Part shown: piece by piece, positions 6,198 through 42,943 of the stretch
Numbering within the stretch: position 1 is the first letter of the stretch
How the letters are laid out: each line of letters opens with the position of its first letter
DNA from: Nitrospinota bacterium
GTDB taxonomy: Bacteria > UBA8248
Length of the DNA: 42,943 bases
Assembly (NCBI GenBank): GCA_026706735.1
Contig: JAPOYD010000100.1
Location: forward strand, 1-42,943
Reading direction: 5' to 3'
Translations under genes and position numbers: made by a program
Notes under the pieces: generated by a model
Seen by the model: the letters and a program-made list of their open reading frames with translations, nothing else
What the model was told of the DNA's origin: nothing
Database searches by the model: none

Positions 6198-6623
6198 ATG
6201 GTTGAAGGCAAGATGATGCTCGACATCGTAACGCCCGAACGCAAGCTCGTCTCCGCCGAGGTGGACGAGGTGACGGCTCCGGGGTTTCATGGTGAGTTCG
6301 GCGTATTGCCCCAGCACACGCCCTACCTGTGCCAGCTCGGCGTCGGCGTGCTCAGCTACCGCACGGGCAGCGCCCGGTATTTCGTCTCCATCATCGAGGG
6401 ATACGCCGAGGTGGGACCCGACAAGATAACCATCCTGGCGGAGAGCGCCGAAAGGGCCGAAGACATCGACGCCGCGCGGGCGCAGGAATCGCGGCAGCGC
6501 GCGCAGGAGCGCATGGCGGGGCAGAAGGCCGACGAAGAGTTCGATTTCGATCGGGCGGAACTGTCCTTGAAGCGCGCCATCGCGCGTATTTCCGTGGCGA
6601 ATCAAAGCGGCCTCAACAACTAG
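6198..6623 (+). CDS. atpC: F0F1 ATP synthase subunit epsilon
   Basis: The epsilon subunit couples gamma to the c ring and can inhibit ATP hydrolysis. It has 141 aa: an N-terminal beta-sandwich (MLDIVTPERKLVSAEVDEVTAPGFHGEFGVLPQHTPYLCQL, family signature) and a C-terminal two-helix arm with FDFDRAELSLKRAIARISVA. It is the last gene of the operon, 4 nt after atpD and followed within 15 nt by an intrinsic terminator. The a and c subunit genes are not in this window and are expected at another locus. Confidence 0.97.
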   Translation: MVEGKMMLDIVTPERKLVSAEVDEVTAPGFHGEFGVLPQHTPYLCQLGVGVLSYRTGSARYFVSIIEGYAEVGPDKITILAESAERAEDIDAARAQESRQRAQERMAGQKADEEFDFDRAELSLKRAIARISVANQSGLNN

Positions 6624-7275: not shown

Positions 7276-8464
7276 ATATGCGCATGAACTTCATGGGGAA
7301 CTTCTGGAGCGCGCGCGCGCCCGTTTTGGTGACCTCCACGAGATTGCCCACCTGAAGGCCACGTCTGCCGTCCGCCGTGCAGACGTTGGGCTGAATCACC
7401 ATGAGCATACCTTCCGTAAAAGTGATTTCGTTCTGCGGACGCTTGATGATGGTGGCGCCTACATCGACGCGGGGGTTTTCGATGAGCAGCCCCCAGCCAT
7501 GGAAGGTGGCGTCGAAGGTCGTGAAGCCCTCCTCCTCGATGATGGAGCCTGCGCGTTTGATGTCCTCATGCGTGTTGCCCGGCTTGAGTGCCTTGAATAT
7601 GCGCTCGTAGGCCTCCACGCCCACCTCGTAGAGTTTCCGGTAGATGGGCGTCGGCGCCACACCGACGGAGATGGGCCGGTGCGCCTGGCCGGGGTGCATC
7701 TCGTAATCTGCGGAGAGTTCCGTCAAAACGATGTCGCCTTTTCTGATCTTGCGGTGCGAGGGGAACTGGTTCGGAAAAATGAGTTGCGGCCTCGCCATGG
7801 ATGTCGAACCCACGAAGATGAGTTGCGGGCTTCCGCCTTTTGGCACGTATGCGCCTGAGATGGTGGCGGCGAGTTCGAACTCGCTCATGCCGATCTTCGC
7901 TTTTTTATCCAGGGCTTCGAAGGCCATGTCCGTGAGCGCCGCTCCGCGTCTGAACCACTTGAGTTCTTCGCGGCTCTTGATGAGCCTCACTTCGGCCAGG
8001 ATGTCCGAAGCGTCGGTGAAATTCGCGCCTTTGAGAGCCTTGCGCCAATAGTCCACCACGCTGAACGGCAGGGACACTGGCAGAATGCCGCGAAAGCCGA
8101 CCAGGCCGATGGTTCCTTTTGCAAGCCCCAGTTCACGGATGCGGCCTTCGACCTTGAGGCCCGGCTCGTAGTCCACGGCCTCTGTTTTCGCGATGATGCT
8201 CATCTTTTTGGCGTAGGGGAGGTAGAGCCTGTTCGAGATGAAAAGGGCGGGCGCGCCCCTGAGCGGAAAGACGGAGAAGCTACTCACCGGGTCCTTGTAG
8301 TTCGTGACGTATTTCAGGTTGGCCTGGTTGCCGCCCTGCATTCCCGAATCCCCGTAGAAGATGAGGACGTCGATTCCCCGCGCGCGCATCCTTTTTCTGA
8401 TCTCGCGGTAGCGGCGGGCGTATTCGGTTTTCGGGTAGCGGGGAAAGTCTTTTGCAGAGGCCAT
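7274..8464 (-). CDS. M24 peptidase-fold (Xaa-Pro aminopeptidase/creatinase-like) protein with altered metal site
   Basis: 396 aa from ATG 8464, which has AAGGAGA upstream; the 611-aa track ORF is run-through antisense to the next gene. Residues about 10-160 form a creatinase-type N-terminal domain (YRKIRKRM-like start, VLIFYGDSGMQGGNQANLKYVTNY). Residues about 165-395 form the pita-bread fold (EVRLIKSREELKWFRRGAALTDMAFEAL). Active M24 metallopeptidases keep Asp, Asp, His, Glu, Glu. Here the two Asp regions read VLTELSADYEMHPGQAHRP, the His region TFHGWGLLIENP, and the usual T-x-E-P region IQPNV. Most metal ligands therefore look substituted, as in metal-free creatinase. The reaction is unknown. 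It lies 29 nt downstream of the LLM gene, so they probably form one operon. Confidence 0.8.
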   Translation of the reverse strand: MASAKDFPRYPKTEYARRYREIRKRMRARGIDVLIFYGDSGMQGGNQANLKYVTNYKDPVSSFSVFPLRGAPALFISNRLYLPYAKKMSIIAKTEAVDYEPGLKVEGRIRELGLAKGTIGLVGFRGILPVSLPFSVVDYWRKALKGANFTDASDILAEVRLIKSREELKWFRRGAALTDMAFEALDKKAKIGMSEFELAATISGAYVPKGGSPQLIFVGSTSMARPQLIFPNQFPSHRKIRKGDIVLTELSADYEMHPGQAHRPISVGVAPTPIYRKLYEVGVEAYERIFKALKPGNTHEDIKRAGSIIEEEGFTTFDATFHGWGLLIENPRVDVGATIIKRPQNEITFTEGMLMVIQPNVCTADGRRGLQVGNLVEVTKTGARALQKFPMKFMRI

Positions 8465-8493: not shown

Positions 8494-9501
8494 CTATGCC
8501 TTCAGTGCGGGCATGAGTTCGTCCGAGATGAGCCGCGCGCTTTCGAGCGCCGAGGAGGCGGGCATGCCGATCCAGTGCGTGCGGATGATGAGGTGGTTCA
8601 CGCCCATATCCTTGTAGGGTTTGAGCTGCTCGTAGCAATCCTCCGGCGAGCCGATGACGAAGCGATCCCTGAGCAGGTCCTCGAAGGGCTGATCGAAAGT
8701 CTCGTCCTCGGGAAGAGCCTTGTCCTGCCCCCAGCGGGCGTAGTCCCTGTATTTCTGGCCGAGATAGGGGCCGGCGAGTTCGAGCGCCGTTTTCCTGTCC
8801 CTGGCGCAGAAGACCTCCTTCATGCAGGGAAGATCTTGCGGGAATGGTTTCCCCGCTTCGGCCAGGCCTTCGCGGTAAATGTCCATCTGGCGCGCGATGG
8901 TCTGCGTGGTGGCGTGGGGGTTGATGAAGAGCGTATCGCCCATGTGCGCCGCGCGCTTCACGGCCGGGTCGCTGTTCGCCGCGAACCAGATGGGGGGATG
9001 GGGCTTCTGGACGGGGCGCATGTTCATGCGCACGTCTTCGAGCGTGCAGTATTCGCTCTCGAACGACACGGATTCCTCCGTCCAGAGGCGCTTCACCAGT
9101 TCGAGGCAATCCACGAAGCGCTTCAGCCGCTCGCCCCGCCGGACGCCGAAGGCGTCGAACTCCACATCCCGGTAGCCGAGGCCGACCCCGAACGCCATGT
9201 TGCCCTCGGCGATGACGTCCATGGTGGCGACGGTCTCCGCCACGTAGACCGGGTTGTGCAGGTTGATGAGCAACACGCCGATGCCGAGCATCATGTCGCC
9301 CGCCTCGGCCTTGAGTCGCGCGAGAAAGGGCAGGTTCTGCAGGTGCTGCACGTTCCCCTCGCTCAGGTAATGCTGGCCGGTGAAAAAAGAATCCCAGCCC
9401 TTGTCACGCGTCAGTCGGACCAGGTCGATTTGAGAGCGGAACGCATCGACCAGATTGGCGTCCAGGGTCTGTTGCGCGGACAGAAAGATGCCGAATTTCA
9501 T
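8494..9501 (-). CDS. LLM-class flavin-dependent oxidoreductase (luciferase-like monooxygenase)
   Basis: 335 aa, a TIM-barrel monooxygenase that uses reduced FMN or F420. The family features are clear: MKFGIFLSAQQ start, GWDSFFTGQHYLSEG, LGIGVLLINLHNPVYVAETVATMDVIAEGNMAFGVGLGYRDVEFDAFGV, and RPVQKPHPPIWFAANSDPAVKRAA. The substrate cannot be told. It starts 40 nt beyond the terminator of the upstream solute-binding protein gene and precedes the M24 gene by 29 nt. An 11-codon copy of its 5' end survives at 11470-11502, showing that the duplication to its right had one edge inside this gene. Confidence 0.9.
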   Translation of the reverse strand: MKFGIFLSAQQTLDANLVDAFRSQIDLVRLTRDKGWDSFFTGQHYLSEGNVQHLQNLPFLARLKAEAGDMMLGIGVLLINLHNPVYVAETVATMDVIAEGNMAFGVGLGYRDVEFDAFGVRRGERLKRFVDCLELVKRLWTEESVSFESEYCTLEDVRMNMRPVQKPHPPIWFAANSDPAVKRAAHMGDTLFINPHATTQTIARQMDIYREGLAEAGKPFPQDLPCMKEVFCARDRKTALELAGPYLGQKYRDYARWGQDKALPEDETFDQPFEDLLRDRFVIGSPEDCYEQLKPYKDMGVNHLIIRTHWIGMPASSALESARLISDELMPALKA

Positions 9502-9540
9502 GGTTGAACCTCAGAAAAAAAGCGATGTTCGTGAAGGTAG

Positions 9541-9577
9541 AAAAAAACCGCGGGGGGCGTTGAGCCACCCCCCGCGG
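9541..9577 (-). terminator. Intrinsic terminator of SBP copy 1
   Basis: On the minus strand, CCGCGGGGGG pairs perfectly with CCCCCCGCGG (9548-9557 with 9568-9577) across a 10-nt loop, followed by seven T (9541-9547). It lies between the SBP stop (9601) and the LLM start (9501), so LLM expression needs read-through or its own promoter. Confidence 0.93.
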
Positions 9578-9600
9578 CGTGGTGCGGCGAAAACACCCGC

Positions 9601-11130
9601 TTAGTTCATGCCGAGCACTTCGATCTCCCAGGGGAGAAGCGTCTCGTCGTGGCGCGGGGTCCACTTGAGATTCGCCCGGTGGCCGAGCACGTCGTGGATT
9701 TTGACGACGATCTTGTGCGTGGCCAGTTCCTTCATCTTGTCGGTCACGGCCTCGAACGCGGCCTGCTGCGCTTTCTCGTCGGCAGTGGCATTGGCCTTGT
9801 CGATCATCTTGTCCAACTCGGGGAAGCACATGCCGCTCCAGGCGCCTTTGCAGCTCGACGTTCCGCGAAGCACGCCGGAGGAATCACCCCCGCCGTTGCC
9901 GAAGCCCATGTAGTAGGCCGCGGCGCCTTTTTTCTTGCCGGCCTTATAGGCGCGGTGGTTCTTCTTGAAGAGCGGGAAGCGCTGGGAGTTGCACGTGGCG
10001 TCCACGCCGACTTTCTTGACCATGCCTGCGATGGCCTCGCAAGTGGCCTTGTCGCCCGGGTAGCGACCGTTCGTGGCGATGATCTCCATCTTGAAGCCCT
10101 TCTCGTGGCCAGCTTCCTTCAAGAGAGCCTTCGCCTTGGCCGGGTCGTAGCCCCACCATTTCTTGTTGGGGTTGTAGCCCGAGTAGTTCCAGGGGTGGAG
10201 CATCTGGCCGAAGAGGTCCGCGCGTCCGCCCAGGATGGTCGAGCGAATCGCTTCCGCGTCGATGGCGTAGTTGATCGCCCTGCGCACCTTTGCATTAGCC
10301 ATCGGGCCGCCGTGTCTCGTGAAGAAGCCCATGTGCATGATGCGCACGGCGGGGACGACGGCGACTTTCGTCTTCGGGTTTTTCTCAAGTTGGGGGATGA
10401 ACTGCGGCATGATGCCCCAGGCAACGTCGATCTCACCCACCAGGAGCGCCTTGGCGCGTGTGGCGGTCTCTCTAATGCCACGGAGAACGATGCGCTGCGG
10501 CCGTTTCGGAAAGTTCTTGTTGTTCCACCAGTTCGGGTTCGCCTCGAACTCCAACCTCTGGCCCTTTTTGAAAGATTTCAGGATGTAGGGGCCCGTGCCA
10601 TAGGTGTTGCGCGTAAGGTGGGCAAGCTCCATCTTTTTGGTCTTCAGGCTGATTGGGCCGGCCCAGCGGGTCAGGCGATTCCACATGCCGCTGTCATACT
10701 CTTTGTTGTGATAGATGAAGGTGTTGTCGTCCACAACTTCGATTTTATCAAGGTTTTTGAAGTATGTTCTCTGGCGCGCGGACTTCATGATGCGGCTGAA
10801 GGTATACTTGACATTTTCAGCGGTCAGGCGCGTGCCGTCAGAGAACTTCACGCCTTTTCTCAGATGAAACTTCGCGCTCTTGGGGGATAGCTTTACCCAC
10901 TTGGTGGCGAGCCAGGGTTTTTTCTTGCCTGTTCCGGTCTCGGCATGAATCAGGGTGTCATAGCTCCAACGCCAGACCATCGCGCCGATGAAGCTCGAGA
11001 CGCGGTGCGGGTCCATTGTGTTGGGCAGGTTCGAGAGAGAGATAGTGACGGTGCTTTTCGCATGCGCCGTCGTGAGCGCACCCATCACCAGCATGGCGAA
11101 GACGGCCAGGATTACGAGAAACTTCCGCAT
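9601..11130 (-). CDS. ABC transporter substrate-binding protein, family 5 (peptide/nickel type), copy 1
   Basis: 509 aa from ATG 11130 (GGAGGAA upstream). The track start at 11214 adds upstream residues before the clear signal peptide MRKFLVILAVFAMLVMGALTTAHA. The mature protein shows the Dpp/Opp-type pattern: PNTMDPHRVSSF, AETGTGKKKPWLATKW, FHLRKGVKFSDGTRLTAENVKYTFSRIM, and GTGPYILKSFKKGQ. Family members bind peptides, opines, nickel or other small solutes in the periplasm. It is a paralogue of 11601-13130 with the same length. No permease or ATPase gene is adjacent; the nearest matching permeases are at 20270-22234. Confidence 0.93.
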   Translation of the reverse strand: MRKFLVILAVFAMLVMGALTTAHAKSTVTISLSNLPNTMDPHRVSSFIGAMVWRWSYDTLIHAETGTGKKKPWLATKWVKLSPKSAKFHLRKGVKFSDGTRLTAENVKYTFSRIMKSARQRTYFKNLDKIEVVDDNTFIYHNKEYDSGMWNRLTRWAGPISLKTKKMELAHLTRNTYGTGPYILKSFKKGQRLEFEANPNWWNNKNFPKRPQRIVLRGIRETATRAKALLVGEIDVAWGIMPQFIPQLEKNPKTKVAVVPAVRIMHMGFFTRHGGPMANAKVRRAINYAIDAEAIRSTILGGRADLFGQMLHPWNYSGYNPNKKWWGYDPAKAKALLKEAGHEKGFKMEIIATNGRYPGDKATCEAIAGMVKKVGVDATCNSQRFPLFKKNHRAYKAGKKKGAAAYYMGFGNGGGDSSGVLRGTSSCKGAWSGMCFPELDKMIDKANATADEKAQQAAFEAVTDKMKELATHKIVVKIHDVLGHRANLKWTPRHDETLLPWEIEVLGMN

Positions 11131-11259
11131 GGTTCTTCCTCCTGAAAAAGAAATGTACTGTTCCAAGACCTTACTGTTTCGAAGACGGGCTATCCATCTT
11201 CTTTCATCAATCACCGAAACTGCCGGCGATGTTCTATTCTCTATAGATGTGTACCTGAA

Positions 11260-11287
11260 TTTATCATGGATACGAACGAAGCGTCAA
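11260..11287 (-). promoter_or_regulatory. Candidate promoter of SBP copy 1
   Basis: On the minus strand TTGACG (11287-11282) and GATAAA (11265-11260) are 16 bp apart. Both hexamers and the spacing are identical in the second copy (13224-13251), although the spacer has changed at about five of 16 positions. That pattern supports function. Confidence 0.55.
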
Positions 11288-11406
11288 AGCAAGGAAACGA
11301 CCTGTCGCCGCCTGGACTCCTGGTGAACGCGGGGTGCTTCGTTGTGCAAGCTGGGGCATCGCGAAATGTTTGAATACGTCCGACGTTTCAACGAGGATCA
11401 GGCTGC

Positions 11407-11484
11407 ATGGTGGAGAACGTAATCGACTCGTGGTTTCGGCATTACGGGGAGCACTATCTTTGGCCGCAGTTGCTGAACGGATAA
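11407..11484 (+). pseudogene. 5' stub of FrsA-like alpha/beta hydrolase gene (duplication remnant)
   Basis: ATG 11407 opens a 25-codon frame, MVENVIDSWFRHYGEHYLWPQLLNG, then stops (TAA 11482-11484). It matches the first residues of the intact hydrolase at 13362 (MAAENIIGSWFRYFPENYLWSQLMSG). The ribosome site of the intact gene (AAGGAGG) is degenerate here. The stub marks the right edge of the ancestral 2-kb duplication and is not expected to encode a functional product. Confidence 0.85.
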
Positions 11485-11502
11485 AAAGATGCCGAATTTC
11501 AT
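11470..11502 (-). pseudogene. 5' stub of LLM oxidoreductase gene (duplication remnant)
   Basis: On the minus strand, ATG at 11502 reads MKFGIFLSVQQ before homology ends; the intact LLM gene begins MKFGIFLSAQQ. The upstream spacer up to the SBP copy 2 terminator is also shared with the intact locus. The stub overlaps the hydrolase stub on the other strand. Both parent genes share a short TTG at the corresponding point, so joining by microhomology is plausible but inferred. Confidence 0.8.
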
Positions 11503-11541
11503 ATTTGAACTTCAGAAAAAAAGCGATGTTCGTGAAGGTGC

Positions 11542-11577
11542 AAAAAAACCGCGGGGGGCGACGAGCACCCCCCGCGG
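11542..11577 (-). terminator. Intrinsic terminator of SBP copy 2
   Basis: The hairpin CCGCGGGGGG/CCCCCCGCGG (11549-11558 with 11568-11577) followed by seven T on the minus strand is the duplicated counterpart of 9541-9577. The stem is unchanged while the loop differs, so the structure has been kept. Confidence 0.93.
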
Positions 11578-11600
11578 CGCGTTGCAGCGAAAACTCCCGC

Positions 11601-13130
11601 CTAGTTCATGCCGAGCACTTCGATCTCCCAGGGGAGAAGCGTCTCGTCGTGGCGCGGGGTCCACTTGAGGTTCGCCCGGTGGCCGAGCACGTCGTGGATC
11701 TTCACGACGATCTTGTGCGTGACCAGATTTTTCATCAAATCGGTTACGCCCTCGAACGCCATCTGCTGTTTTTTCGGGTCGACGGTGGCCGTGGCCGCGT
11801 CGATGGCCTTATCCAGCTCCGGGAAGCACATGCCGCTCCAGGGGCCTTTGCAACTCGACGTTCCGCGAAGCACGGAGGTGGAGTCGCCCTGGCCGTTGCC
11901 GAAGCCCATGTAGTAGGCCGCGGCGCCTTTTCTCTTGCCGGCCTTGTAGGCGCGGTGGAGCTTCTTGAAGAGCGGGAACCGCTGGGAGTTGCACGTGGCG
12001 GCCACGCCGATTTTCTTGACCATGCCGGCGATGGCCTCGCACGTGGGCTTGTCGCCCGGGTAGCGGCCGTTCGTGGCGATGAGTTCCATCTTGAAGCCCT
12101 TGCCGTAGCCGGCTTCTTTCAAGAGGGCTTTCGCCTTGGCCGGGTCGTAGCCGTACCATTTTTTCTTCGGGTTGTAGCCCGAGTAGTTCCAGGGATGGAG
12201 CATCTGGCCGAACAGGTCCGCGCGTCCGCCCAAGATGGTCGAGCGAATCGCCTCCGCGTCGATGGCGTAGTTGATCGCTTTGCGCACCTTGACGTTGGCC
12301 ATCGGGCCGCCGTGTCTCGTGAAGAAGCCCATGTGCATGATGCGCACGGCGGGGACGACGGCGACTTTCGTCTTCGGGTTTTTCTCGAGCTGGGGGATGA
12401 ACTGAGGCTCTATGCCCCAGGCCACCTGGATCTCGCCCGCCTGAAGCGCCTTGGCGCGCGTGGCGCCTTCGCGGATGCGGCGGAGGACGACGCGCTGCGG
12501 CCGTTTCGGGAAGTTCTTGTTGTTCCACCAGTTCGGGTTCGCGTCGAACACCATCTTCTGGCCCTTGGTCCAGGATTTAAGGATGTAGGGGCCCGTGCCG
12601 TATGTATTGCGAGAGATGTGGGCGAGTTCCATGCCCTTGGTCTTCAGGCTGATGGGGCCAGCCCAGCGGGTCAGGCGGTTCCACATACCACCGTCCGCTT
12701 CCTTGTTGTGGTAGATGAAGGTGTGATCGTCGATGACTTCGATTTTATCAATGTTCTTGAAGTACTGCCTCTGCCGCGCGGACTTCATGATGCGGCTGAT
12801 GGTGTACTTGAAGCTCTCCGCCGTGAAGGGTGAGCCGTCCGAGAATTTCACGCCCTTTCTCAATTCGAACTTCCACTTCAGGGGAGTGAGCTGGGTCCAC
12901 TTGGTGGCGAGCCAGGGTTTTTTCGCGCCCGTTCCGGTCTCGGCGTGAAGAAGGGTGTCGTAGCTCCAGCGCCAGACCATGGCGCCGACGAAGTTCGAGA
13001 CGCGGTGCGGGTCCATCGTCGGTGGTTCGCCCGTCAGGGCGATGGTGACGGTGCTTTTCGCGTCAGCCGTCACGGGCGCGCCCATCGCCAGTATGGCGAA
13101 GACGGCCAGAATTACAAGAAACTTGCGCAT
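11601..13130 (-). CDS. ABC transporter substrate-binding protein, family 5 (peptide/nickel type), copy 2
   Basis: 509 aa from ATG 13130 (AAGGAGG upstream), with signal peptide MRKFLVILAVFAILAMGAPVTADA. Most of the sequence is shared with copy 1, including the C-terminus HDETLLPWEIEVLGMN. Differences cluster near mature residues 30-37 (ALTGEPPT versus SLSNLPNT), residues 80-95, and short stretches of the second lobe. Altered ligand preference after duplication is possible but inferred. Each copy has its own promoter and terminator, so the two can be expressed independently. Confidence 0.93.
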   Translation of the reverse strand: MRKFLVILAVFAILAMGAPVTADAKSTVTIALTGEPPTMDPHRVSNFVGAMVWRWSYDTLLHAETGTGAKKPWLATKWTQLTPLKWKFELRKGVKFSDGSPFTAESFKYTISRIMKSARQRQYFKNIDKIEVIDDHTFIYHNKEADGGMWNRLTRWAGPISLKTKGMELAHISRNTYGTGPYILKSWTKGQKMVFDANPNWWNNKNFPKRPQRVVLRRIREGATRAKALQAGEIQVAWGIEPQFIPQLEKNPKTKVAVVPAVRIMHMGFFTRHGGPMANVKVRKAINYAIDAEAIRSTILGGRADLFGQMLHPWNYSGYNPKKKWYGYDPAKAKALLKEAGYGKGFKMELIATNGRYPGDKPTCEAIAGMVKKIGVAATCNSQRFPLFKKLHRAYKAGKRKGAAAYYMGFGNGQGDSTSVLRGTSSCKGPWSGMCFPELDKAIDAATATVDPKKQQMAFEGVTDLMKNLVTHKIVVKIHDVLGHRANLKWTPRHDETLLPWEIEVLGMN

Positions 13131-13223
13131 CGTTTTTCCTCCTTTAGGAAAAGTACAGGTCCGAAAACCTCACTTCTGTGAAGATGTAAATCCCTTTGAT
13201 TTTTGCATAACCGTATGACGATA

Positions 13224-13251
13224 TTTATCACGGATGCGAATCTAGCGTCAA
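13224..13251 (-). promoter_or_regulatory. Candidate promoter of SBP copy 2
   Basis: TTGACG (13251-13246) and GATAAA (13229-13224) on the minus strand are spaced 16 bp, the same boxes and spacing as the copy 1 promoter. It lies about 94 nt upstream of the start codon. Confidence 0.55.
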
Positions 13252-13361
13252 AGCCTGGAGCGAGTGTTTCACGTGTGATTTCCTTGTGAACACACAAGCC
13301 TTGCATGTATGTTCTTCGCATCGCGAAATTCATGAATGTACAGAAGTTAAGGAGGCTTTTC

Positions 13362-14537
13362 ATGGCGGCGGAGAACATCATCGGCTCGTGGTTTCGGTAT
13401 TTCCCGGAGAACTATCTCTGGTCGCAGTTGATGAGCGGCCAAATCAACATCGCCGCTGTGGGGGGCTCGAACTTCCACGAAATCGATCAGATCGGCAAGC
13501 GGTTGAGCGGACGTGCCGGCGACGCCGAAGCCTGGCACGACGCGTGGTCCTGGATGTCGGACAAGACCCTCGCCCGGGCGGAGGATGAGGAGCGAAAGGG
13601 CCACACGCACACCGCGATGGCGGCCTTCGTGCGAAGCGCAATTTACCGCTACGCGAGCGAGCGTTTCGTCCATCCCGACGACCCGAGAAAGACCGAATCC
13701 TACAGAAAGCTCCTGCCCCACTACGAGAAGGGGATGAAATTCCGCGTGCCCGGGTTCGAGCGCGTGGAGGTTCCCTACGAGGAAGGCCCTCTGGCGGCGT
13801 ACCTCCTTCCCCCCAAAAACCCGACGGGCCGTGATCCTTACGTCGCCTTTTTCGACGGGCTGGACGGCTCCAAGGAGATCACCGTGCTTTGGGGCGCGCT
13901 TGCTTTGATCGAGCGCGGCGTCGGGGTGCTCTGCGTGGACGGGCCGGGACAGGGCGAGACGCTCAGGCTGCGCAAGATACCGAGTCGGTTCGATTACGAG
14001 GTGGCCGGAACGGCGGCGTTCGATTTTCTGGATGCGCGACCAGAGGTGGATTCTGATCGGGTCGGCCTGATGGCCATGAGCATGGGCGGATATTACGCGC
14101 CGCGCATCGCCGCCTTCGAGCATCGTTACGCGGCGTGCCTCACCTGGGGCGCGCATTTCGATTACCACGAGGTCTGGGTGCACAGGAGACGCGTGCTGGA
14201 AAGCGGAGGCACCATCTCCTCATCCGCCATCTGGCAGTTGCCCTGGGTGCTGGGCGCGCCGGACATGGATTCCGCGATGGAAAAATGCAAGGCCTACACC
14301 CTGGCGGGCGTCGCCGAGAAGATACGCATGCCGATTTGCATCACCCACGGCCAGGACGACAACATCGTGCCGGTCGAGATGGCCCACAGGCTCTATGAGG
14401 CGTGTGGTTCCGAGGAGAAGGAACTCAAGATTTTCACCGTAGAGGACGGCGGGAGCCAGCACTGCGCCTTCGATAACCTGCCGATGTGTGGGGACTGGAT
14501 TGCGGACTGGTGGATGGACAGGTTCAAGACTGCGTAG
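13362..14537 (+). CDS. FrsA-like alpha/beta hydrolase (dienelactone hydrolase/esterase type)
   Basis: 391 aa from ATG 13362, chosen because AAGGAGG lies 7 nt upstream and the N-terminus aligns with the duplicated stub; the track start 13305 has no such support. An N-terminal helical cap (about 1-130) is followed by the hydrolase core. The nucleophile elbow is AMSMGGYY, the acid is in HGQDDNIVP, and the histidine is in DGGSQHCAFD, so the Ser-Asp-His triad is intact. VDGPGQGE is the typical oxyanion-region strand. The family includes esterases and C-C hydrolases such as 2,6-dihydroxypseudooxynicotine hydrolase; the substrate is unknown. Paralogues lie at 38332 and 41137. Confidence 0.9.
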   Translation: MAAENIIGSWFRYFPENYLWSQLMSGQINIAAVGGSNFHEIDQIGKRLSGRAGDAEAWHDAWSWMSDKTLARAEDEERKGHTHTAMAAFVRSAIYRYASERFVHPDDPRKTESYRKLLPHYEKGMKFRVPGFERVEVPYEEGPLAAYLLPPKNPTGRDPYVAFFDGLDGSKEITVLWGALALIERGVGVLCVDGPGQGETLRLRKIPSRFDYEVAGTAAFDFLDARPEVDSDRVGLMAMSMGGYYAPRIAAFEHRYAACLTWGAHFDYHEVWVHRRRVLESGGTISSSAIWQLPWVLGAPDMDSAMEKCKAYTLAGVAEKIRMPICITHGQDDNIVPVEMAHRLYEACGSEEKELKIFTVEDGGSQHCAFDNLPMCGDWIADWWMDRFKTA

Positions 14538-15104: not shown

Positions 15105-16073
15105 TTGTCAGAAGATAAAGCGCCTCTGAGCGAGGAGCGCATGCAGGCGATGTACCGCGACATGCTGCGCATACGAAGGTTCGAGGAAACGGCGTTCGAG
15201 CTGTTCGAACAAGGCGAGGTCATGGGCGGCATCCACGTGAGCATCGGCCAGGAGGGATGCTCGGTCGGCGCGTGCAGCACGCTCCGGGAAGACGATGCGA
15301 TTCTCACCACCCACCGGGGCCACGGCCATTCCATCGCCAAGGGGACGCGCCTGCCCGAGATGATGGCGGAGCTTCTGGGCAAGGCGACGGGTCTTTGCCA
15401 CGCCAAGGGCGGCTCCATGCACATCGCCGACGTGTCGAAGGGCCACTATGGTGCTCATTCTATCGTGGGTTCGAACATGCCCATGGCAGTGGGCATCGGT
15501 CTCGCCTTTCATTTCGAGGGAAAAGGCCAGGTGGCGGTCGTCTTCTTCGGCGACGGCGCGGCGAACGAGGGCAGCTTTCACGAGTCGCTGAACCTGGCGT
15601 CGATCTGGAAACTCCCCGTCATCTTCTTTTGTGAGAACAACCATTTCGCCTCGAGCACGCGGGTGCAGTACGCCACTTCGGTGGCGGACATCAGCGCGCG
15701 GGCGGGAGGATACGACATCCCCGGCGTGACGGTGGACGGCATGGACGTGCTGGCGGTCCATGAGGTGATGGTCGAGGCCGTGGACCGCGCGAGGAGGGGC
15801 CTGGGTCCCAGCCTGATCGAGGCGAAAACCTACCGGTATTTCGGCCATTCGAGAAAAGACCCGCAGTTCGGGCCGTACCGGACGGAAGAGGAGTGGAACG
15901 AGTGGAAGGCGAAAGACCCCCTGCTCGTGGCGGAGGAAATTCTCGGCGTGACCGAGACGCAGAAAAAAGCGCACCTGGACGCTGTTGAGGATGAATTGCA
16001 AGATGCGCTCGCCTTTGCGCGGCAAAGTCCCGAACCCGAACCAGACGATGTGTATGAGGATTTATATGCCTGA
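15105..16073 (+). CDS. Acetoin/pyruvate dehydrogenase-type E1 alpha subunit, pair 1
   Basis: 322 aa from TTG 15105 (GAGGAG nine bases upstream). It is a thiamine diphosphate enzyme subunit acting on acetoin or a 2-oxoacid. Marks of the family are MLRIRRFEE, HVSIGQEGCSVGACSTLREDDAILTTHRGHGHSIAKG, and GGSMHIAD. The ThDP/Mg motif GDGAANEGSFHESLNLASIWKLPVIFFCENN (GDG to NN) is intact. It overlaps the E1 beta start by 8 nt. A small 6-bp hairpin (15044-15060) lies upstream. No E2 or E3 gene follows, so the acyl acceptor is not encoded here. Confidence 0.92.
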   Translation: MSEDKAPLSEERMQAMYRDMLRIRRFEETAFELFEQGEVMGGIHVSIGQEGCSVGACSTLREDDAILTTHRGHGHSIAKGTRLPEMMAELLGKATGLCHAKGGSMHIADVSKGHYGAHSIVGSNMPMAVGIGLAFHFEGKGQVAVVFFGDGAANEGSFHESLNLASIWKLPVIFFCENNHFASSTRVQYATSVADISARAGGYDIPGVTVDGMDVLAVHEVMVEAVDRARRGLGPSLIEAKTYRYFGHSRKDPQFGPYRTEEEWNEWKAKDPLLVAEEILGVTETQKKAHLDAVEDELQDALAFARQSPEPEPDDVYEDLYA

Positions 16074-17052
16074 GGTGAAGACGCGGACTATTTCATATTC
16101 GACGGCGATTAACGAGGCGCTCCATGAGGAGATGGAGCGCGATGAAAAAGTCTTCCTGATGGGTGAGGACATCGCGCTCTCCGCCATCTCGCCCGCCACG
16201 GCGGGCTTGGGGGATAGGTTCGGTCATGAGCGCGTGCGCAACACGCCCATCAGCGAGCTGGGCTTCACCGGTGCGGCCGTAGGCGCCGCGATGGCGGGCT
16301 ATCGGCCCGTGCTCGACATGCGGCGCATTGATTTCATGATGCTGGCCATCGACCCCATCGCGAACCAGGCGGCCAAGTTGCGCTACATGCTCGGCGGCCA
16401 GGTGAGCATCCCGCTGGTCATCAGGGCGCCCGAGGGCGGCGGCTCCCAGAACGGCCCTACGCACAGCCAGTGTCTCGAGGCCTGGTTCATCCAGGTGCCG
16501 GGCCTTCGCGTCATCGTACCCAGCGACCCCGCCGACGCGAAGGGGCTTTTGAAGTCCGCCATCAGGGAGGATAATCCCGTGCTTTTCGTGGAGTACCGTG
16601 CTCTCTACTCCCTGGAAGGCCCTGTTCCTGAGGGCGATTATACCGAGCCTATCGGGAAGGCGGCGGTGAAACGAGAGGGAAGCGACATCACCCTCATCGG
16701 CATCGGAAGCCAGGCGCGCAACTGTCTCGAAGCGTCGGATTTGCTCGCGCGAGAGGGCATCGACGCAGAGGTAGTGGATCCCAGGACCATCAATCCCCTG
16801 GACGTGGAGGGACTTGCGGGGTCTGTGCGGAAAACGGGCAAGTGCGTCATCGCAGAAGAGGGACACAAAAGCGGCGGCGTGGGCGCCGAGATCGCGGCCT
16901 CGGTGCAGGAAGCGGCCTTCGGTGCGCTTAAAGCGCCCATCATTCGCGTGGCGGCGCTCGACGTGCCCGTACCCGTTCACACGAAACTCGAAGCCATCGT
17001 CCTGCCCAGCACGGAGAAGGTCGTATCGGCAGCGAAAAAGCTGCTTTCATAG
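16066..17052 (+). CDS. Acetoin/pyruvate dehydrogenase-type E1 beta subunit, pair 1
   Basis: 328 aa from ATG 16066, which overlaps the end of E1 alpha by 8 nt and has GAGG upstream; the track start 15985 lies inside E1 alpha. Family features are SYSTAINEALHEEMERDEKVFLMGEDIA, RVRNTPISELGFTGAAVGAAMAGYRPV, and LRYMLGGQVSIPLVIRAPEGGG. The transketolase C-terminal domain begins near residue 200 (GIGSQARNCLEASDLL). It forms the alpha2-beta2 E1 with the preceding gene. Compared with pair 2, DIALSAISPATAGLGDRF has a few extra residues in the region after GEDIA. Confidence 0.92.
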   Translation: MPEVKTRTISYSTAINEALHEEMERDEKVFLMGEDIALSAISPATAGLGDRFGHERVRNTPISELGFTGAAVGAAMAGYRPVLDMRRIDFMMLAIDPIANQAAKLRYMLGGQVSIPLVIRAPEGGGSQNGPTHSQCLEAWFIQVPGLRVIVPSDPADAKGLLKSAIREDNPVLFVEYRALYSLEGPVPEGDYTEPIGKAAVKREGSDITLIGIGSQARNCLEASDLLAREGIDAEVVDPRTINPLDVEGLAGSVRKTGKCVIAEEGHKSGGVGAEIAASVQEAAFGALKAPIIRVAALDVPVPVHTKLEAIVLPSTEKVVSAAKKLLS

Positions 17053-17065
17053 GGGACTTGTCTTG

Positions 17066-18031
17066 GTGAAGTCGAATTCCGGGTTGTCCCGAAAGCGTCT
17101 GGGCGAGATGTACCGCACCATGCTCAGGATCCGCCGTTTCGAAGAGACGGCGGACGATCTCTACATGGCGGGCAAGGTGGTGGGCGGCGTGCACGTGAGC
17201 ATCGGCCAGGAGGCGTGTTCCGCCGGCGTGTGCGCGGCCTTGCGGGAGGATGACGCCGTACTCACCACCCACCGGGGACACGGGCACTCCATCGCCAAGG
17301 GAACGCGCCTGCCCGAGATGCTGGCCGAACTGATGGGGAAAGTGACCGGCCTTTGCCGCTCCAAGGGCGGCTCGATGCATATCGCAGACGTTTCGAAGGG
17401 CCACTATGGCGCTCATTCCATCGTGGGCGCGAACATGCCAATGGCGGCGGGCATCGGCCTCGCGTATCAACTCGAAGGGAAAGACCGCGTGGCGGTGGTC
17501 TTCTTCGGCGACGGGGCTTCGAACAACGGGGCGTTTCACGAGGCGATGAACCTGTGCGCCATCTGGAAGCTGCCGGTCGTTTTTTTCTGCGAGAACAACC
17601 AGTACGCCGTCAGCGTGCCGGCGGAGTATTCCACCTCGGTGGACGACATCAGCGTGCGCTCGAAGGGCTATGACGCCCCCGGCCTGACGGTGGACGGCAT
17701 GGACGTGGCGGCGGTCTACGAGGCGAGCCGCGAGGCCGTGTCGCACGCGCGGCGCGGTCTGGGGCCGAGCCTCGTCGAGGCGAAGACCTACCGGTTTTTC
17801 GGCCACTCGCGCGGCGACCCGCACTACGGCATGTACCGGACGAAAGAGGAATGGGAGGGTTGGAAGGAAAGAGACCCCCTCATCGTGTGCGAGAAGATGC
17901 TCAAGATGACGGCAAAGCAAAAGAAAGCGCATGCCGATGCGGTGGAGGCGGAGATTCGCGAAGCGATCGAGTTTGCGGAGAACAGCCCCGAGCCCGAGGA
18001 AAGTGTGGCGCTCGAGGACATCTTTGCCTGA
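17066..18031 (+). CDS. Acetoin/pyruvate dehydrogenase-type E1 alpha subunit, pair 2
   Basis: 321 aa from GTG 17066 (TTG at 17063 is equally possible; AGGGGA at 17051-17056 serves either). The track ORF reaching back to 16814 is out-of-frame overlap with E1 beta 1. Its sequence follows pair 1 closely: MLRIRRFEE, HVSIGQEACSAGVCAALREDDAVLTTHRGHGHSIAKG, and ThDP motif GDGASNNGAFHEAMNLCAIWKLPVVFFCENN. The clearest differences lie in the N-terminus, around AVSVPAEYSTSV, and at the C-terminus. It lies 13 nt after pair 1, so all four E1 genes are probably one transcript. Confidence 0.92.
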   Translation: MKSNSGLSRKRLGEMYRTMLRIRRFEETADDLYMAGKVVGGVHVSIGQEACSAGVCAALREDDAVLTTHRGHGHSIAKGTRLPEMLAELMGKVTGLCRSKGGSMHIADVSKGHYGAHSIVGANMPMAAGIGLAYQLEGKDRVAVVFFGDGASNNGAFHEAMNLCAIWKLPVVFFCENNQYAVSVPAEYSTSVDDISVRSKGYDAPGLTVDGMDVAAVYEASREAVSHARRGLGPSLVEAKTYRFFGHSRGDPHYGMYRTKEEWEGWKERDPLIVCEKMLKMTAKQKKAHADAVEAEIREAIEFAENSPEPEESVALEDIFA

Positions 18032-18042
18032 GGAAACCCGGT

Positions 18043-19026
18043 ATGCCTGAACTCACATACGTCGAAGCCCTGAACGAGGCGCTCCATGAAGAGATGGCGC
18101 GCGACGAGAAGGTGTTCCTTATGGGCGAGGACGTGGCGTTCGATTATTTCGGCGTGTGCTCGGGGTTGGCGGATCGCTTCGGCCGCGACCGTGTGCGCGA
18201 TACGCCCATCTGCGAACTGGGATTCACGGGCGCAGGCGTGGGCGCGGCGATGGCGGGCTTTCGGCCCATCGTGGACTTGCGCTTCATGGATTTCACCACC
18301 TACGCGCTCGACCCCATCGTGAACCAGGCGGCGAAGCTCCGCTACATGCTCGGGGGACAGCTTTCGGTTCCCATGGTGGCGCGGATACCCAGCGGCGCGG
18401 GGCTCCAGTACGGCGCGACACACGGGCAGTCGCTCGAAGCGTGGTTCATGCAGGTGCCTGGATTGAAGGTCCTCTACCCGAGCTGCGCGCCCGACGCCAA
18501 AGGGCTGCTCAAGGCCGCCGTCCGGGACGACAACCCGGTCATGTTCATCGAGCACAGGCTGCTCTACGCGCAAAAGACGAAACAAAGCGTTCCCGAGGGC
18601 GATCACACCACGCCCATCGGGGTGGCCGACGTGAAGCGAGTGGGCGTGGACGCCACCATCGTGGGAATCGGCTATCAGATGGGCCATTGCCTGGAAGCTG
18701 CCGAGGCTCTGGCGGTAGAGGGAATCGAGTGCGAGGTCATCGACCCGCTCTCGCTCTCGCCCCTGGACGTGGAGACCATCACGGCCTCCGTGCGCAAGAC
18801 GAGCCGCTGCGTCATCGTGGAAGAGGGCCATCTGAGGAGCGGCGTGGGCGCCGAGATTTCCGCCGCCATACAGGAGGCGGTGTTCGAATACCTCGATGCA
18901 CCCATCGGCCGCGTGGCCGCGCTCATGGCGCCGATTCCCGTTCAGACGAAACTCGAGAAGTTCGTGCTCCCCAGCACGGAGAAAGTCATCGCGGCGGTGC
19001 GCAAAACCCTGGGCGTCGCTGCCTGA
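18043..19026 (+). CDS. Acetoin/pyruvate dehydrogenase-type E1 beta subunit, pair 2
   Basis: 327 aa from ATG 18043 (TGAGGAA upstream), 11 nt after E1 alpha 2. Motifs are MPELTYVEALNEALHEEMARDEKVFLMGEDVAFDYFGVCSGLADRF, RDTPICELGFTGAGVGAAMAGFRPIVD, and LRYMLGGQLSVPMVARIPSGAG. The FDYFGVCSGL stretch is the usual GxFxxxxGL-type pattern of acetoin and branched-chain enzymes, which pair 1 has lost. The stop is 1 nt from the stop of the convergent FAA hydrolase gene, leaving no room for a terminator. Confidence 0.92.
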   Translation: MPELTYVEALNEALHEEMARDEKVFLMGEDVAFDYFGVCSGLADRFGRDRVRDTPICELGFTGAGVGAAMAGFRPIVDLRFMDFTTYALDPIVNQAAKLRYMLGGQLSVPMVARIPSGAGLQYGATHGQSLEAWFMQVPGLKVLYPSCAPDAKGLLKAAVRDDNPVMFIEHRLLYAQKTKQSVPEGDHTTPIGVADVKRVGVDATIVGIGYQMGHCLEAAEALAVEGIECEVIDPLSLSPLDVETITASVRKTSRCVIVEEGHLRSGVGAEISAAIQEAVFEYLDAPIGRVAALMAPIPVQTKLEKFVLPSTEKVIAAVRKTLGVAA

Positions 19027-20269: not shown

Positions 20270-21289
20270 ATGCGCACTTATATCATCAGACGCTGTCTGC
20301 AGAGCTTCATCGTGTTCGGGGCGATCCTGATCATCGTGTTCTCGATGCTGCAGATCACGGGGAACCCGGCCGCCGTCCTGATGCCGCTCGATTCCACCGA
20401 AGAGGACATCCAGGCCTTCAGCAAGGAGATGGGCTTCGACCAGCCCATACCGATCCAGTTCGCCAAGTTCATGCTGGGCTCGGACCTCGTGGACGACTTG
20501 CTCGGCGCCGAACGAGAGAAAGAAAAGGTCGATGAACTCGAACGCGACCCCGATGCGCCCAAGATCGTGAGGACCAAGGGCGTGATTCGAGGGGATTTCG
20601 GTTTTTCCTACCGCCACGAGATTCCGGCGATGGGCCTCGTGCTCGAGCATTTCCCGAACACGGTTCTCCTCGCTTTGGCGGCGGTCCTGATAGCCGTGGT
20701 GATCTCCATACCCGCCGGGGTCTTGTCGGCGACTTTCCGCAATACGTGGATCGACTACACCAGTTCGGTCGGGGCGATGTTCGGCCAGTCGATGCCGAAC
20801 TTCTGGCTCGGGCTCTTGCTCATCATATTCTTCGCCGTGTATCTCGGCTGGCTGCCCACGTCGGGTTACGACGCCTGGTATTACATCATCCTGCCGGCGA
20901 TCACGGCGGGGCTCTACGCCACGGCGCGCATCACGCGCCTCGTGCGCTCCCAGATGCTCGACGTGCTGGGCATGGACTACGTGCGCACGGCGCGCTCGAA
21001 GGGAATCGTGGAGTGGATCGTGGTGGTGCGCCACGCGCTCAAGAACGCGTCCATCCCCGTCGTCACCCTGGTGGGCTTCGAACTGGGCATTCTGCTCGGC
21101 GGCACGGTGGTGACGGAAGCCGTCTTCGCGTGGCCGGGGGTGGGTTTTCTGGTGGTGGACGCCATCAACAATCAGGACTATCCCATCGTTCAGGCGGCGG
21201 TGGCCCTGCTGGCGTTTGTATTCGTTTTCGTGAACCTCGTGGTCGACATTCTCTACGCATGGCTCGACCCGAGAATTTCCTATAGCTAA
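20270..21289 (+). CDS. ABC transporter permease, DppB/OppB family
   Basis: 339 aa integral membrane protein. It starts MRTYIIRRCLQSFIVFGAILIIVFSMLQITGNPAAVLMP (first membrane segment, typical DppB opening) and has five further hydrophobic segments. The EAA-type loop, which contacts the ATPase, is DYVRTARSKGIVEWIVVVRHALKNASIPVVT. The periplasmic region after the first segment has a charged stretch (LLGAEREKEKVDELERDPDAPKIVRTKG) longer than I expect for this family. It pairs with the next gene 15 nt downstream. The window has no DppD/DppF ATPase and no binding protein beside it; the two family 5 SBPs at 9601-13130 are plausible partners. Confidence 0.92.
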   Translation: MRTYIIRRCLQSFIVFGAILIIVFSMLQITGNPAAVLMPLDSTEEDIQAFSKEMGFDQPIPIQFAKFMLGSDLVDDLLGAEREKEKVDELERDPDAPKIVRTKGVIRGDFGFSYRHEIPAMGLVLEHFPNTVLLALAAVLIAVVISIPAGVLSATFRNTWIDYTSSVGAMFGQSMPNFWLGLLLIIFFAVYLGWLPTSGYDAWYYIILPAITAGLYATARITRLVRSQMLDVLGMDYVRTARSKGIVEWIVVVRHALKNASIPVVTLVGFELGILLGGTVVTEAVFAWPGVGFLVVDAINNQDYPIVQAAVALLAFVFVFVNLVVDILYAWLDPRISYS

Positions 21290-21304
21290 GGGGTAAGGCG
21301 CACG

Positions 21305-22234
21305 ATGGTTGTCGACGACAGGGCGGCGACGCTCGACATAGAAATCGATGAGGACATGGAACGCGGACCGAGCGATTTTCAGCTCGCAATGCAGGAGTTG
21401 AAGCGCAGGCCGCCTGCGATCTTCGGCGCGTTCTTCGTATCTCTCGTTATCATCTTCGCCCTCGTGCCCGAGATATTCTCCCCGCTGGATCCGCTTTCCC
21501 AGGACCTGGGGCGCTATCTCAAGGCGCCCGGCTACGTGGACAAGGCGGGAGATACCTACTGGCTCGGCACCGACCAGCAAGGCCGCGATATCCTGAGCCG
21601 CATCATCTGGGGCTCGCGCATATCGCTCATCGTCGGCATCGCCGCCGTCATCGTGAGCGGGCTCATCGGCATCACGGTCGGCATCTTCGCGGGCTATTTC
21701 GGCGGCTGGGTGGACACCATCATCAGCCGCATCATCGATACGGCCCTGGCCGTTCCCTTCATCCTGCTGGCCATCAGCCTGGTGGCGATACTGGGGCCGA
21801 GCCTGCAGAACATCGTCCTGGTCATCGCGCTCAGGACCTGGCTCGTCTACGCGCGGGTGGTGCGCGCCGAGGTTCTCTCCATCAAGGAGCACGAGTTCGT
21901 CACCGGAGCGAAGGCGACCGGCTGCGGCACGCTGCGGATCTTGTTCATCTATCTCTTCCCGAACGTGGCTTCCACGACCATCGTCATCGCCACCCTGTAC
22001 CTGGGCCGGATGATCATCATCGAATCGGCACTCTCCTTCCTCGGGCTGGGCGTACCGCCTCCCACGCCGACGTGGGGCGGAATGCTCGCCGACGGCAGGA
22101 GCTTTCTCGACACGGCCTGGTGGATAGCGCTCTTCCCGGGCCTCATCCTCATGCTCACGGTCCTGAGCGTGAACCTTCTGGGCGACTGGCTGCGTGACGT
22201 GCTCGACCCGAGAATGAAGCGCCTGGCCGAGTAG
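21305..22234 (+). CDS. ABC transporter permease, DppC/OppC family
   Basis: 309 aa. A cytoplasmic N-terminal tail rich in acidic residues (about 1-35) precedes the first membrane segment (AIFGAFFVSLVIIFALVPEIFSPLDP). The signature HWLGTDxxGRDxxSR-like stretch reads YWLGTDQQGRDILSRIIWGSRISL. The EAA loop is EFVTGAKATGCGTLRILFIYLFPNVASTTIVI, and the C-terminus has SFLGLGVPPPTPTWGGML and NLLGDWLRDVLDPR. It is complete and should form the channel with the DppB-like protein. The next gene follows by 25 nt, so transport and catabolism may be co-transcribed. Confidence 0.93.
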   Translation: MVVDDRAATLDIEIDEDMERGPSDFQLAMQELKRRPPAIFGAFFVSLVIIFALVPEIFSPLDPLSQDLGRYLKAPGYVDKAGDTYWLGTDQQGRDILSRIIWGSRISLIVGIAAVIVSGLIGITVGIFAGYFGGWVDTIISRIIDTALAVPFILLAISLVAILGPSLQNIVLVIALRTWLVYARVVRAEVLSIKEHEFVTGAKATGCGTLRILFIYLFPNVASTTIVIATLYLGRMIIIESALSFLGLGVPPPTPTWGGMLADGRSFLDTAWWIALFPGLILMLTVLSVNLLGDWLRDVLDPRMKRLAE

Positions 22235-38331: not shown

Positions 38332-39516
38332 CTACGCGCCCAGCTTCAGCTTGAGCCAGTCGAAAATCTCGTGCGCGTAGGGGGGCACGTTGTCCATCTG
38401 GCAGTGCTGGGCGCCCGTTTCGGTCCCCTTGACGACCCGGAAGGTCTTGTCTTTCGAACCCGAGGCGTTGAAAAGGTTTTTCGCGTCGGCGAGGGGGATC
38501 TGCTGGTCGCCTTCCCCGTGAATCAGCAGAAACGGGCAGCGCATGTTCTGCACCACGCCGTCGAGCTTGAAATCGGCGAGCAGGTCGAGGCACTCCTCTG
38601 TGGAGTCGGAGTTGAAAATCCACTCCAGGTGATGGCCGGGAACCGAGAGGGCCGTCTTGTAGGCGGCGGCGATACGGTCCTGCCATACCCGCTGGTAGTC
38701 CCAGATCGCCCCCCAGGCCACGCACGCCTTGAAGCGGTGCTCCATGCTGGCGTTTCTGGGCGCGTAGTAGCCGCCCAGGCTGATCGCCATGACGCCGGCG
38801 CGCTTCGCGTCCACGTCGTTTCTGCTTTCGAGGTAATCGAGCGCGGCACTACCAGCGACCTCGTGGTCGTGGCGCAGGAAGAGCTTCCGGAAGCGGATGG
38901 CTTCCCCGTTTCCGGGCGCGTCCACGGCGAGCACGCTCATCCCCCGGCGCGCGAGGTCTTCCGCGCCCAGGATGTATTGGATCTCTTTCGAAACGTCGAA
39001 GCCGTCGAAAGAGACAACCACGGGCGGTTTCCGCTTCCTCGTGTTCCGCGCGTGAATGAGGATGCCCGGCAGCGTTTTTTTGCCTTCGAAGGGGATCTCC
39101 ACGTGCTCGATGCGCGGCGCGTCCGTGAGCGCGGCGAAGCGCTTGAAGCTGTCCAGCGATTTGCGGTACGCGGCGTTCGCCGCCTTGTCCTTGGGTGTGC
39201 GGAACCGCTCGCCGAGCTGGTAGTAGAAACACGCGCGCTTGAAGAAGGCGGCGGCGGAGAGGTCGTTCTTCTTCCGCGCGGCGGCCATCCCGAGGGCGCG
39301 CATCCTGTCGGCTTCGCTCACCCATTCGGCGAACCAGGCGTCGTCGTCGCCTATCTTGCCCTTTAACTTGCGGCAGACCCTGTCGACCTCGCCCATCGTG
39401 GACGAGCCCCAGAAGGACGTGGAATAGGCGATCCCCACGCCTGCGGACCAGCGGTAGTCATTCGGAAAATACGCGAACCACGGTTCCTTGCGGACGGCTT
39501 GTGCGGCTTTTGCCAT
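38332..39516 (-). CDS. FrsA-like alpha/beta hydrolase
   Basis: 394 aa from ATG 39516 (AAGGAGA upstream); the track start 39558 is less likely. The N-terminal helical cap includes WFAYFPNDYRWSAGVGIAYSTSFWGSSTMGEVDRVCRKL and FKRACFYYQLGERFRTPKDKAANAAYRKSLDSFKRF. The core has VDAPGNGEAIRF, nucleophile AISLGGYYAP, acid in HGEGDQQIPL and histidine in TGAQHCQMDN. It is closest within this window to the hydrolase at 41137 and more distant from 13362. The substrate is unknown. It is monocistronic, with its own terminator. Confidence 0.92.
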   Translation of the reverse strand: MAKAAQAVRKEPWFAYFPNDYRWSAGVGIAYSTSFWGSSTMGEVDRVCRKLKGKIGDDDAWFAEWVSEADRMRALGMAAARKKNDLSAAAFFKRACFYYQLGERFRTPKDKAANAAYRKSLDSFKRFAALTDAPRIEHVEIPFEGKKTLPGILIHARNTRKRKPPVVVSFDGFDVSKEIQYILGAEDLARRGMSVLAVDAPGNGEAIRFRKLFLRHDHEVAGSAALDYLESRNDVDAKRAGVMAISLGGYYAPRNASMEHRFKACVAWGAIWDYQRVWQDRIAAAYKTALSVPGHHLEWIFNSDSTEECLDLLADFKLDGVVQNMRCPFLLIHGEGDQQIPLADAKNLFNASGSKDKTFRVVKGTETGAQHCQMDNVPPYAHEIFDWLKLKLGA

Positions 39517-39891
39517 GAGGCGTTCTCCTTGCGGAAGATCAGAAATTGTTGAGCGCATCTGTTTTGAGGGATGGCGCGGGAAAATCGAGAAAAACGGATT
39601 CTTGAATCCGGCAGTTCTTCGAAATTCGGGCTTCCTCGCTTCGTTGTTCCAGTGGCGGGAAATATATCACAGCGTCGTTCCGCCCGTCATCGGTGGGGGG
39701 ATGTTCCGTTCGAGGGGGAATAAATTCTCGAAGGATGGTCATAATACGTGAACGTAGCGCCGGGACAGGCCCCCGTGCCCGTCCTGATGGTATTGGTCCT
39801 GAAAAGGGACAACCACAGGGGGTTGTCCCTACGTTGACGTTCTCCCGTCTGCGCGCGAGGCCAATCCGTAGGGGCGATTCGCGAACCGCCC
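39517..39891. other. 375-bp non-coding gap with palindromic repeats
   Basis: The first 220 bp hold no ORF or clear promoter. The inverted repeat GGGACAACC ... GGTTGTCCC lies at 39806-39829, preceded by a degenerate GGGACAGG element from 39761. A GTAGGGGCG-type palindrome begins at 39868 and runs into the DUF429 gene. Confidence 0.6.
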
Positions 39892-42312: not shown

Positions 42313-42395
42313 GAATGGCCTCCTTGCGCCGCATCCGGGACGCGCCGGAGCGCATGTACGCCCGGTTTCAAGTCGCGCGAATGCGGGTTTTCGGG

Positions 42396-42424
42396 TTGAA
42401 TGTAAGCGCGCGGGATCATATCTT
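42396..42424 (+). promoter_or_regulatory. Candidate promoter of the M20 peptidase gene
   Basis: TTGAAT (42396-42401), a 17-bp spacer, TATCTT (42419-42424), 65 nt upstream of the start. Four of six bases match in each box. Confidence 0.35.
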
Positions 42425-42488
42425 TGTTCCACGCTGATAATCAAACCGATGAGCCGACCGCAGGCGTTTCGCGAAAGAGGAGTGTGTG

Positions 42489-42943
42489 ATGAGCGAAGGA
42501 AGTGACTTCCAAAAAGTGCTGGACTACATCGATCAGAACGCGGAGCGCACCGTGGCCGATCTGCAGGAACTCTGCCGCCAGCCGAGCATCTCGACAACCA
42601 ACGTCGGGATCAGGGAGATGGCGGCCCTGCTCGAAGCCCGCGTGGCGCGCTCGGGACTCGAGACGACGCTCCATGAGACGGGCGGCAACCCGATTCTCAC
42701 CGCGCGCTTAGGAGGCGGCGGGGACAAGACGCTTCTCTTCTACAACCACTACGACGTGCAGCCCGCCGAGCCGCTTTCCGAGTGGGACACGCCGCCGTTC
42801 GAGGCGCATATCGTGGACGGCGCCGTCATCGCGCGGGGCGCCACGGACAACAAGGGCAACATCATGAGCCGCCTGGCGGCGTTCGAGGCGTTTCTGGCGG
42901 TGCGCGGCGAGTTGCCGTGTTCGGTCAAATACATCATCGAGGG
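42489..42943 (+). CDS. M20 family metallopeptidase/dipeptidase, 5' part only
   Basis: ATG 42489 (AGGAG eight bases upstream) opens a frame that runs off the right edge (151 codons), which is why the ORF track omits it. The peptide shows the M20 pattern: LQELCRQPSISTTNVGIREMAALLEARVARSGLETTLHETGGNPILTARL. The metal-binding H-x-D follows in LLFYNHYDVQPAEPLSEWDTPPFEAHIVDG, with the bridging Asp in ARGATDNKGNIMSRLAAFEAF. This arrangement fits carnosinase/dipeptidase-type M20 enzymes that cleave dipeptides or N-acyl groups with two zinc ions. The C-terminal ligands and dimerisation domain lie outside the window. Confidence 0.9.
   Translation, partial: MSEGSDFQKVLDYIDQNAERTVADLQELCRQPSISTTNVGIREMAALLEARVARSGLETTLHETGGNPILTARLGGGGDKTLLFYNHYDVQPAEPLSEWDTPPFEAHIVDGAVIARGATDNKGNIMSRLAAFEAFLAVRGELPCSVKYIIE

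Follow-up and report, generated by a model that had tools for sequence, protein, structure and literature searches.

A tandem duplication of an SBP_bac_5 binding-protein gene in a sponge-associated Nitrospinota lineage, with a readable junction and a mosaic of gene conversion

The window, a stretch of 42,943 nucleotides, is contig C175 of a 3.79-Mb Nitrospinota draft genome (191 contigs, 3% estimated contamination). It carries a tandem pair of SBP_bac_5 binding-protein (SBP) genes on the minus strand at an offset of 2000 bp, with copy A on the side of a luciferase-like monooxygenase (LLM) gene and copy B on the side of an alpha/beta hydrolase gene (Table 1). Both reading frames are open, and the copies are 85.7% identical in coding DNA and 85% identical in protein sequence. 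The SBP_bac_5 profile matches the two proteins above its curated cut-off (E = 1.8e-76 and 5.5e-80). The ATG of the hydrolase gene at 13362 has AAGGAGG upstream and is probably the true start.

Table 1. Features of the duplicated locus (window coordinates)
Feature	Position	Strand	Evidence or remark
LLM (luciferase-like monooxygenase) gene, left neighbour, intact	8494-9501	-	Pfam Bac_luciferase, E 3.5e-56
Left breakpoint zone, LLM codons 7-11, short homology CTGTCCGCGCAACA (- strand)	9470-9483		downstream similarity ends; sequence comparison
Copy A intrinsic terminator, CCGCGGGGGG stem and T run	9541-9577	-	sequence; duplicated at 11542-11577
SBP copy A, 509 aa, SBP_bac_5	9601-11130	-	adjoins LLM monooxygenase gene
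Copy A promoter-like site, TTGACG-17 nt-ATAAAT	11259-11287	-	motif upstream of both copies; putative activity
Hydrolase stub, ~25 codons then TAA	11407-11484	+	81% identical to 13367-13443
Novel junction, hydrolase 5' end to LLM 5' end	11471-11484		matching junction in L038 at ~7649-7662, CTGTCCGCTCAGCA
LLM stub, ~8 codons, start at 11502	11480-11502	-	sequence comparison
Copy B intrinsic terminator	11542-11577	-	sequence comparison
SBP copy B, 509 aa, SBP_bac_5	11601-13130	-	adjoins alpha/beta hydrolase gene
Copy B promoter-like site, TTGACG-17 nt-ATAAAT	13223-13251	-	motif upstream of both copies; putative activity
Alpha/beta hydrolase gene, right neighbour, intact	13362-14537	+	Pfam Hydrolase_4, E 4.7e-12
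Right breakpoint zone, hydrolase codons ~23-27	13429-13442		upstream similarity ends; sequence comparison

A sequence-only reading of the window had described the SBP gene, its promoter and its terminator as present twice at a 2000-bp offset, and had named a lack of significant nucleotide similarity outside the SBP coding region as grounds against it. A 300-nt and a 103-nt direct repeat (87% and 86% identity) lie at offsets of 2000 and 2001, and a third of 77 nt (81%) at 1958. In the upstream regions of the two copies, 75% of 297 aligned bases agree (z = 13 relative to shuffled sequences), and in the downstream terminator regions 88% of 130 (z = 21), both far above chance, and the description is borne out. 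Similarity runs past the coding region on both sides and ends inside the hydrolase and LLM genes. A strong hairpin with a T run follows each copy, and since each retains a promoter-like site and a terminator, copies A and B are likely expressed separately.

Both edges of the duplication had been called readable, and so they are: similarity ends within the LLM and hydrolase genes, and the two ends meet in a novel junction between the copies. Here the beginnings of the two neighbouring genes stand head to head. The earlier count of 25 hydrolase codons holds approximately, but of the 11 LLM codons only about 8 are clearly LLM-derived, and the figure of 11 requires counting the seam itself, where homology is ambiguous. 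The hydrolase stub differs from its intact parent at 13 of 72 sites. At the breakpoints, CTGTCCGCGCAGCA in the LLM gene and CTGCCCGCTCATCA in the hydrolase gene match at 11 of 14 bases with a longest exact run of 4, the two 14-mers being present-day sequences (LLM from bin107, described below, and hydrolase from genus members G005 and G006). Random pairs of positions in the locus do as well in 0.09% of cases, and short imperfect homology was therefore likely present at the recombined breakpoints. Found together, the direct repeat that includes noncoding flanks, the novel junction of the unit ends and the short breakpoint homology mark the arrangement as a tandem duplication.

The same arrangement is found in MPNJ01000006.1 (L038), which is part of bin107 from the sponge Aplysina aerophoba (PMC5649159), one of the Nitrospinota MAGs that are the nearest named genomes to the window in the collection compared. 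Its SBP copies lie at L038 6001-7530 and 8012-9541, the gene order is identical to that of the window, and the spacer between the copies contains the window's junction, CTGTCCGCTCAGCAACTG. The promoter-like site is also there, with small changes. With the repeats and both edges in the window, and its junction and gene order recurring in bin107, tandem duplication stands as the main interpretation. Since bin107 has both copies and the identical junction, the duplication is older than the split of the two species and no assembly artefact. The hydrolase stub points the same way: over 72 nt, the window and bin107 have seven changes in common that none of the four intact parent genes in the comparison has, and five sites differ between the two stubs. 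Given seven common derived changes against five differences, the stub is older than the split. We rejected the stubs as functional peptides. All five differences between the hydrolase stubs change the amino acid (judged by eye) and the window stub ends in TAA, which makes decay the simpler reading, 72 nt being too short for a test.

The locus is present in four further genus members, G002, G003, G005 and G006; two copies are read directly in two genomes only, that of the window and bin107. The contigs of G002 and G003 terminate within the SBP gene, and in G006 one contig starts in the last SBP codons and another near hydrolase codon 5. In G005 (L040, VXPH01000105.1), 10 N at about 6531-6540 lie inside the SBP gene, NNNNNNNNNN, with about 55 bp repeated on either side; because of this scaffold gap and repeat, the record resembles a frameshifted single copy, and we rejected G005 as a single-copy genome. 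The suggested search for relatives with one SBP between LLM and hydrolase yielded no clean case among the genus members carrying the locus, G005 being a scaffolded look-alike. In G004, the SBP and hydrolase orthologs of this locus were both not found.

At diagnostic sites, the hydrolase-side fragments are B-type (23/26 in G002, 24/25 in G003 and 25/25 in G005), and they carry B-type bases at sites where the outgroups are A-type (4/6, 5/6 and 6/6, respectively). The LLM-side fragments are A-type in G003 (21/24) and G005 (17/24) and mixed in G002 (10 A, 8 B, 5 neither). Because other members thus carry B-type fragments on the hydrolase side and mostly A-type fragments on the LLM side, we date the duplication with moderate confidence to a time before the genus radiated. 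In a tree of the flanks, G005 and G006 group (97) on the opposite side of the genus, and the remaining order is weakly supported. The A/B split receives moderate bootstrap in block 1; block 2 gives no resolution for the A side.

Two other accounts of these observations have to be weighed. The window genome is a fragmented draft with some estimated contamination, which speaks for an assembly artefact or a strain mixture, yet the copies are diverged by 14% and the identical arrangement and seam stand in an independent hybrid long-read assembly; we regard such an error as extremely improbable. Bin107 is one of the bins listed for a hybrid assembly of Illumina and PacBio reads (PMC5649159), and this may be the reason why both of its copies came out resolved. 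It is also unlikely, if less so, that the duplication is limited to a subclade, with G002, G003, G005 or G006 having a single SBP, either ancestral or chimeric by inter-copy recombination. A second copy was not found in these four assemblies, and a crossover deletion would likewise leave B at the hydrolase side and A at the LLM side. However, all four assemblies break in or beside the unit, by the 10 N in G005 and by contig ends in the others, and the derived B states on the hydrolase side are not expected of an ancestral single copy.

The outgroups G012, G016 and G017, from beyond the genus, have a single SBP on unbroken contigs, between an M24 peptidase gene and the hydrolase gene and without an LLM gene, at an SBP-peptidase spacing of about 100-130 bp. 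Since this spacing holds neither an LLM gene nor a second SBP, the LLM gene, as far as the gene orders tell, arrived at or was lost from the locus separately. The ancestral order LLM-SBP-hydrolase proposed earlier is therefore retained for the genus at the time of the event, but not for the related genera with their single SBP and no LLM gene there.

Both SBP copies are under purifying selection. The comparison of synonymous and non-synonymous divergence that had been suggested gives a whole-gene dN/dS of 0.24 for A versus B in the window, 0.18 for A orthologs and 0.11 for B orthologs; together with the two open frames of 509 codons, these values agree with the earlier view that both copies are selected. 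Divergence is unevenly distributed along the gene. Among the four complete copies, 49 of the 79 informative sites are copy-grouping and the remaining 30 are not, and the two kinds are clustered (20 runs in 79 sites, permutation p = 5e-5), with nearly all copy-grouping sites in codons 48-147 and 414-487. In bin107, the paralog dS of codons 151-405 is 0.15, compared with ortholog dS values of 0.24 (B) and 0.36 (A), and the confidence intervals of the differences exclude zero. A paralog dS lower than that of either ortholog pair marks the stretch of codons ~151-405 as homogenised by gene conversion, in bin107 at the least. Paralogs are closer than orthologs in this region of bin107 only, and the dS signal of conversion is not significant for codons 151-405 of the window's own copies. 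Codons ~61-150 and ~406-480 remain copy-specific. In codons 406-480, paralog dN is 0.15-0.16, compared with 0.012 for B orthologs and 0.07 for A orthologs at comparable dS, and the confidence intervals of dN/dS are wide (0.17-1.07). As the copies do not diverge independently, their synonymous distance gives no date, and we discarded it as a measure of the age of the event.

The two proteins have their Pfam family and predicted fold in common with the DppA-OppA-NikA-GsiB class, without a curated equivalog match: none of the NCBIfam equivalogs for DppA, NikA and GsiB reaches its cut-off (best 133 bits, cut-offs 393-1005). A structure model of copy B (pLDDT 89) resembles peptide-binding SBPs in the PDB, namely, 5u4o (TM 0.83/0.89) and 1dpp (TM 0.78), and 1uqw was also matched. 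In a profile alignment, loop GFGNGQGDS (409-417) of copy B aligns with GWTGDNGDPD of E. coli DppA. Asp436 of DppA is established as the residue that anchors the amino group of the peptide. The aligned Asp and the position of Arg383 are where 8z1y and 8z1z, the latter a PDB entry for DppA R383D+D436R, differ. Three copy-specific residues (414, 418 and 419) lie around the position aligned to Asp436, and a difference in ligand preference between A and B is plausible. A Dpp/Nik-type permease pair at 20270-22234 in the same window, without a family 5 SBP gene directly adjacent, may serve the two SBPs.

What keeps the copy-specific blocks distinct is less clear-cut. They may be held by selection against ongoing conversion and specify different ligand recognition, through the 414-419 loop near the Asp436 position, or docking; we put this forward tentatively, and if true, the genes would represent a natural binding-protein pair with two specificities and a common core polished by conversion. 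To pure dosage, in which A and B bind one ligand, are kept for more protein and differ where conversion missed by chance, we give not quite an even chance. Purifying selection across the whole gene in both copies, the high amino acid identity, the homogenised middle and the promoter-like site and terminator retained by each copy all fit dosage, whereas the paralog dN of codons 406-480, well above that of either set of orthologs at comparable dS (if with wide intervals on dN/dS), and the location of residues 414, 418 and 419 do not.

For the history of the locus, we consider it very probable that one head-to-tail duplication, some 2 kb long, in an ancestor of this Nitrospinota genus gave two copies, presumably both expressed, with a gain in dosage, perhaps later ligand divergence, and conversion of the middle. 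The duplicated unit would comprise LLM 5' end, terminator, SBP, promoter and hydrolase 5' end, and would have arisen by illegitimate recombination at the short imperfect homology. With its own promoter and terminator, each copy would form a separate transcription unit. A larger amount of a peptide/nickel-type periplasmic binding protein would have been the first gain. In time the two proteins would have come to prefer somewhat different ligands, the middle of the gene being homogenised by conversion, as in bin107, and the two outer blocks staying copy-specific. The duplication is ordinary in kind and older than its appearance suggests; the mosaic of conversion is the interesting part.

Other repeated genes lie nearby. 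Two E1 alpha-beta dehydrogenase gene pairs stand in tandem at 15105-19026, a second, older duplication next door (protein identity 68% for alpha and 60% for beta; DNA 71.5% over 1.9 kb). Further FrsA-like alpha/beta hydrolases at 38332-39558 and 41137-42597 are ~38-41% identical to that at 13362-14537. The bacterial family has an expanded set of these hydrolases (3-15 per genome at E <= 1e-60), two of which stand in tandem on G010:C312. Another SBP-LLM pair, more distant in sequence and with hydrolases nearby, lies at G001:C12:134424-137065, which suggests that the SBP-LLM-hydrolase gene set recurs in these genomes.

The locus is a textbook example of tandem duplication in the sponge-associated Nitrospinota, an uncultured lineage of symbionts, and is unusually well preserved. 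As two species still show the seam, one can follow the breakpoint, the age of the event and the conversion that came after. Collapse of such pairs in short-read assemblies can leave an apparent single copy, as in G005, and binding-protein copy counts in such genomes may therefore be too low. For spontaneous tandem duplications of Salmonella LT2, a cut-off of at least 11 bp was deduced for verified duplications (PMC3411829). These are likewise head-to-tail copies with a novel junction at short homology, but the homology in the window is imperfect, and its duplication has become fixed and is old, where those are transient. Concerted evolution of prokaryotic paralogs is described in PMC6053082 as recurrent and long-lasting for 26 genes. 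By comparison, the SBP pair is homogenised in its middle only, and this is shown for one lineage.
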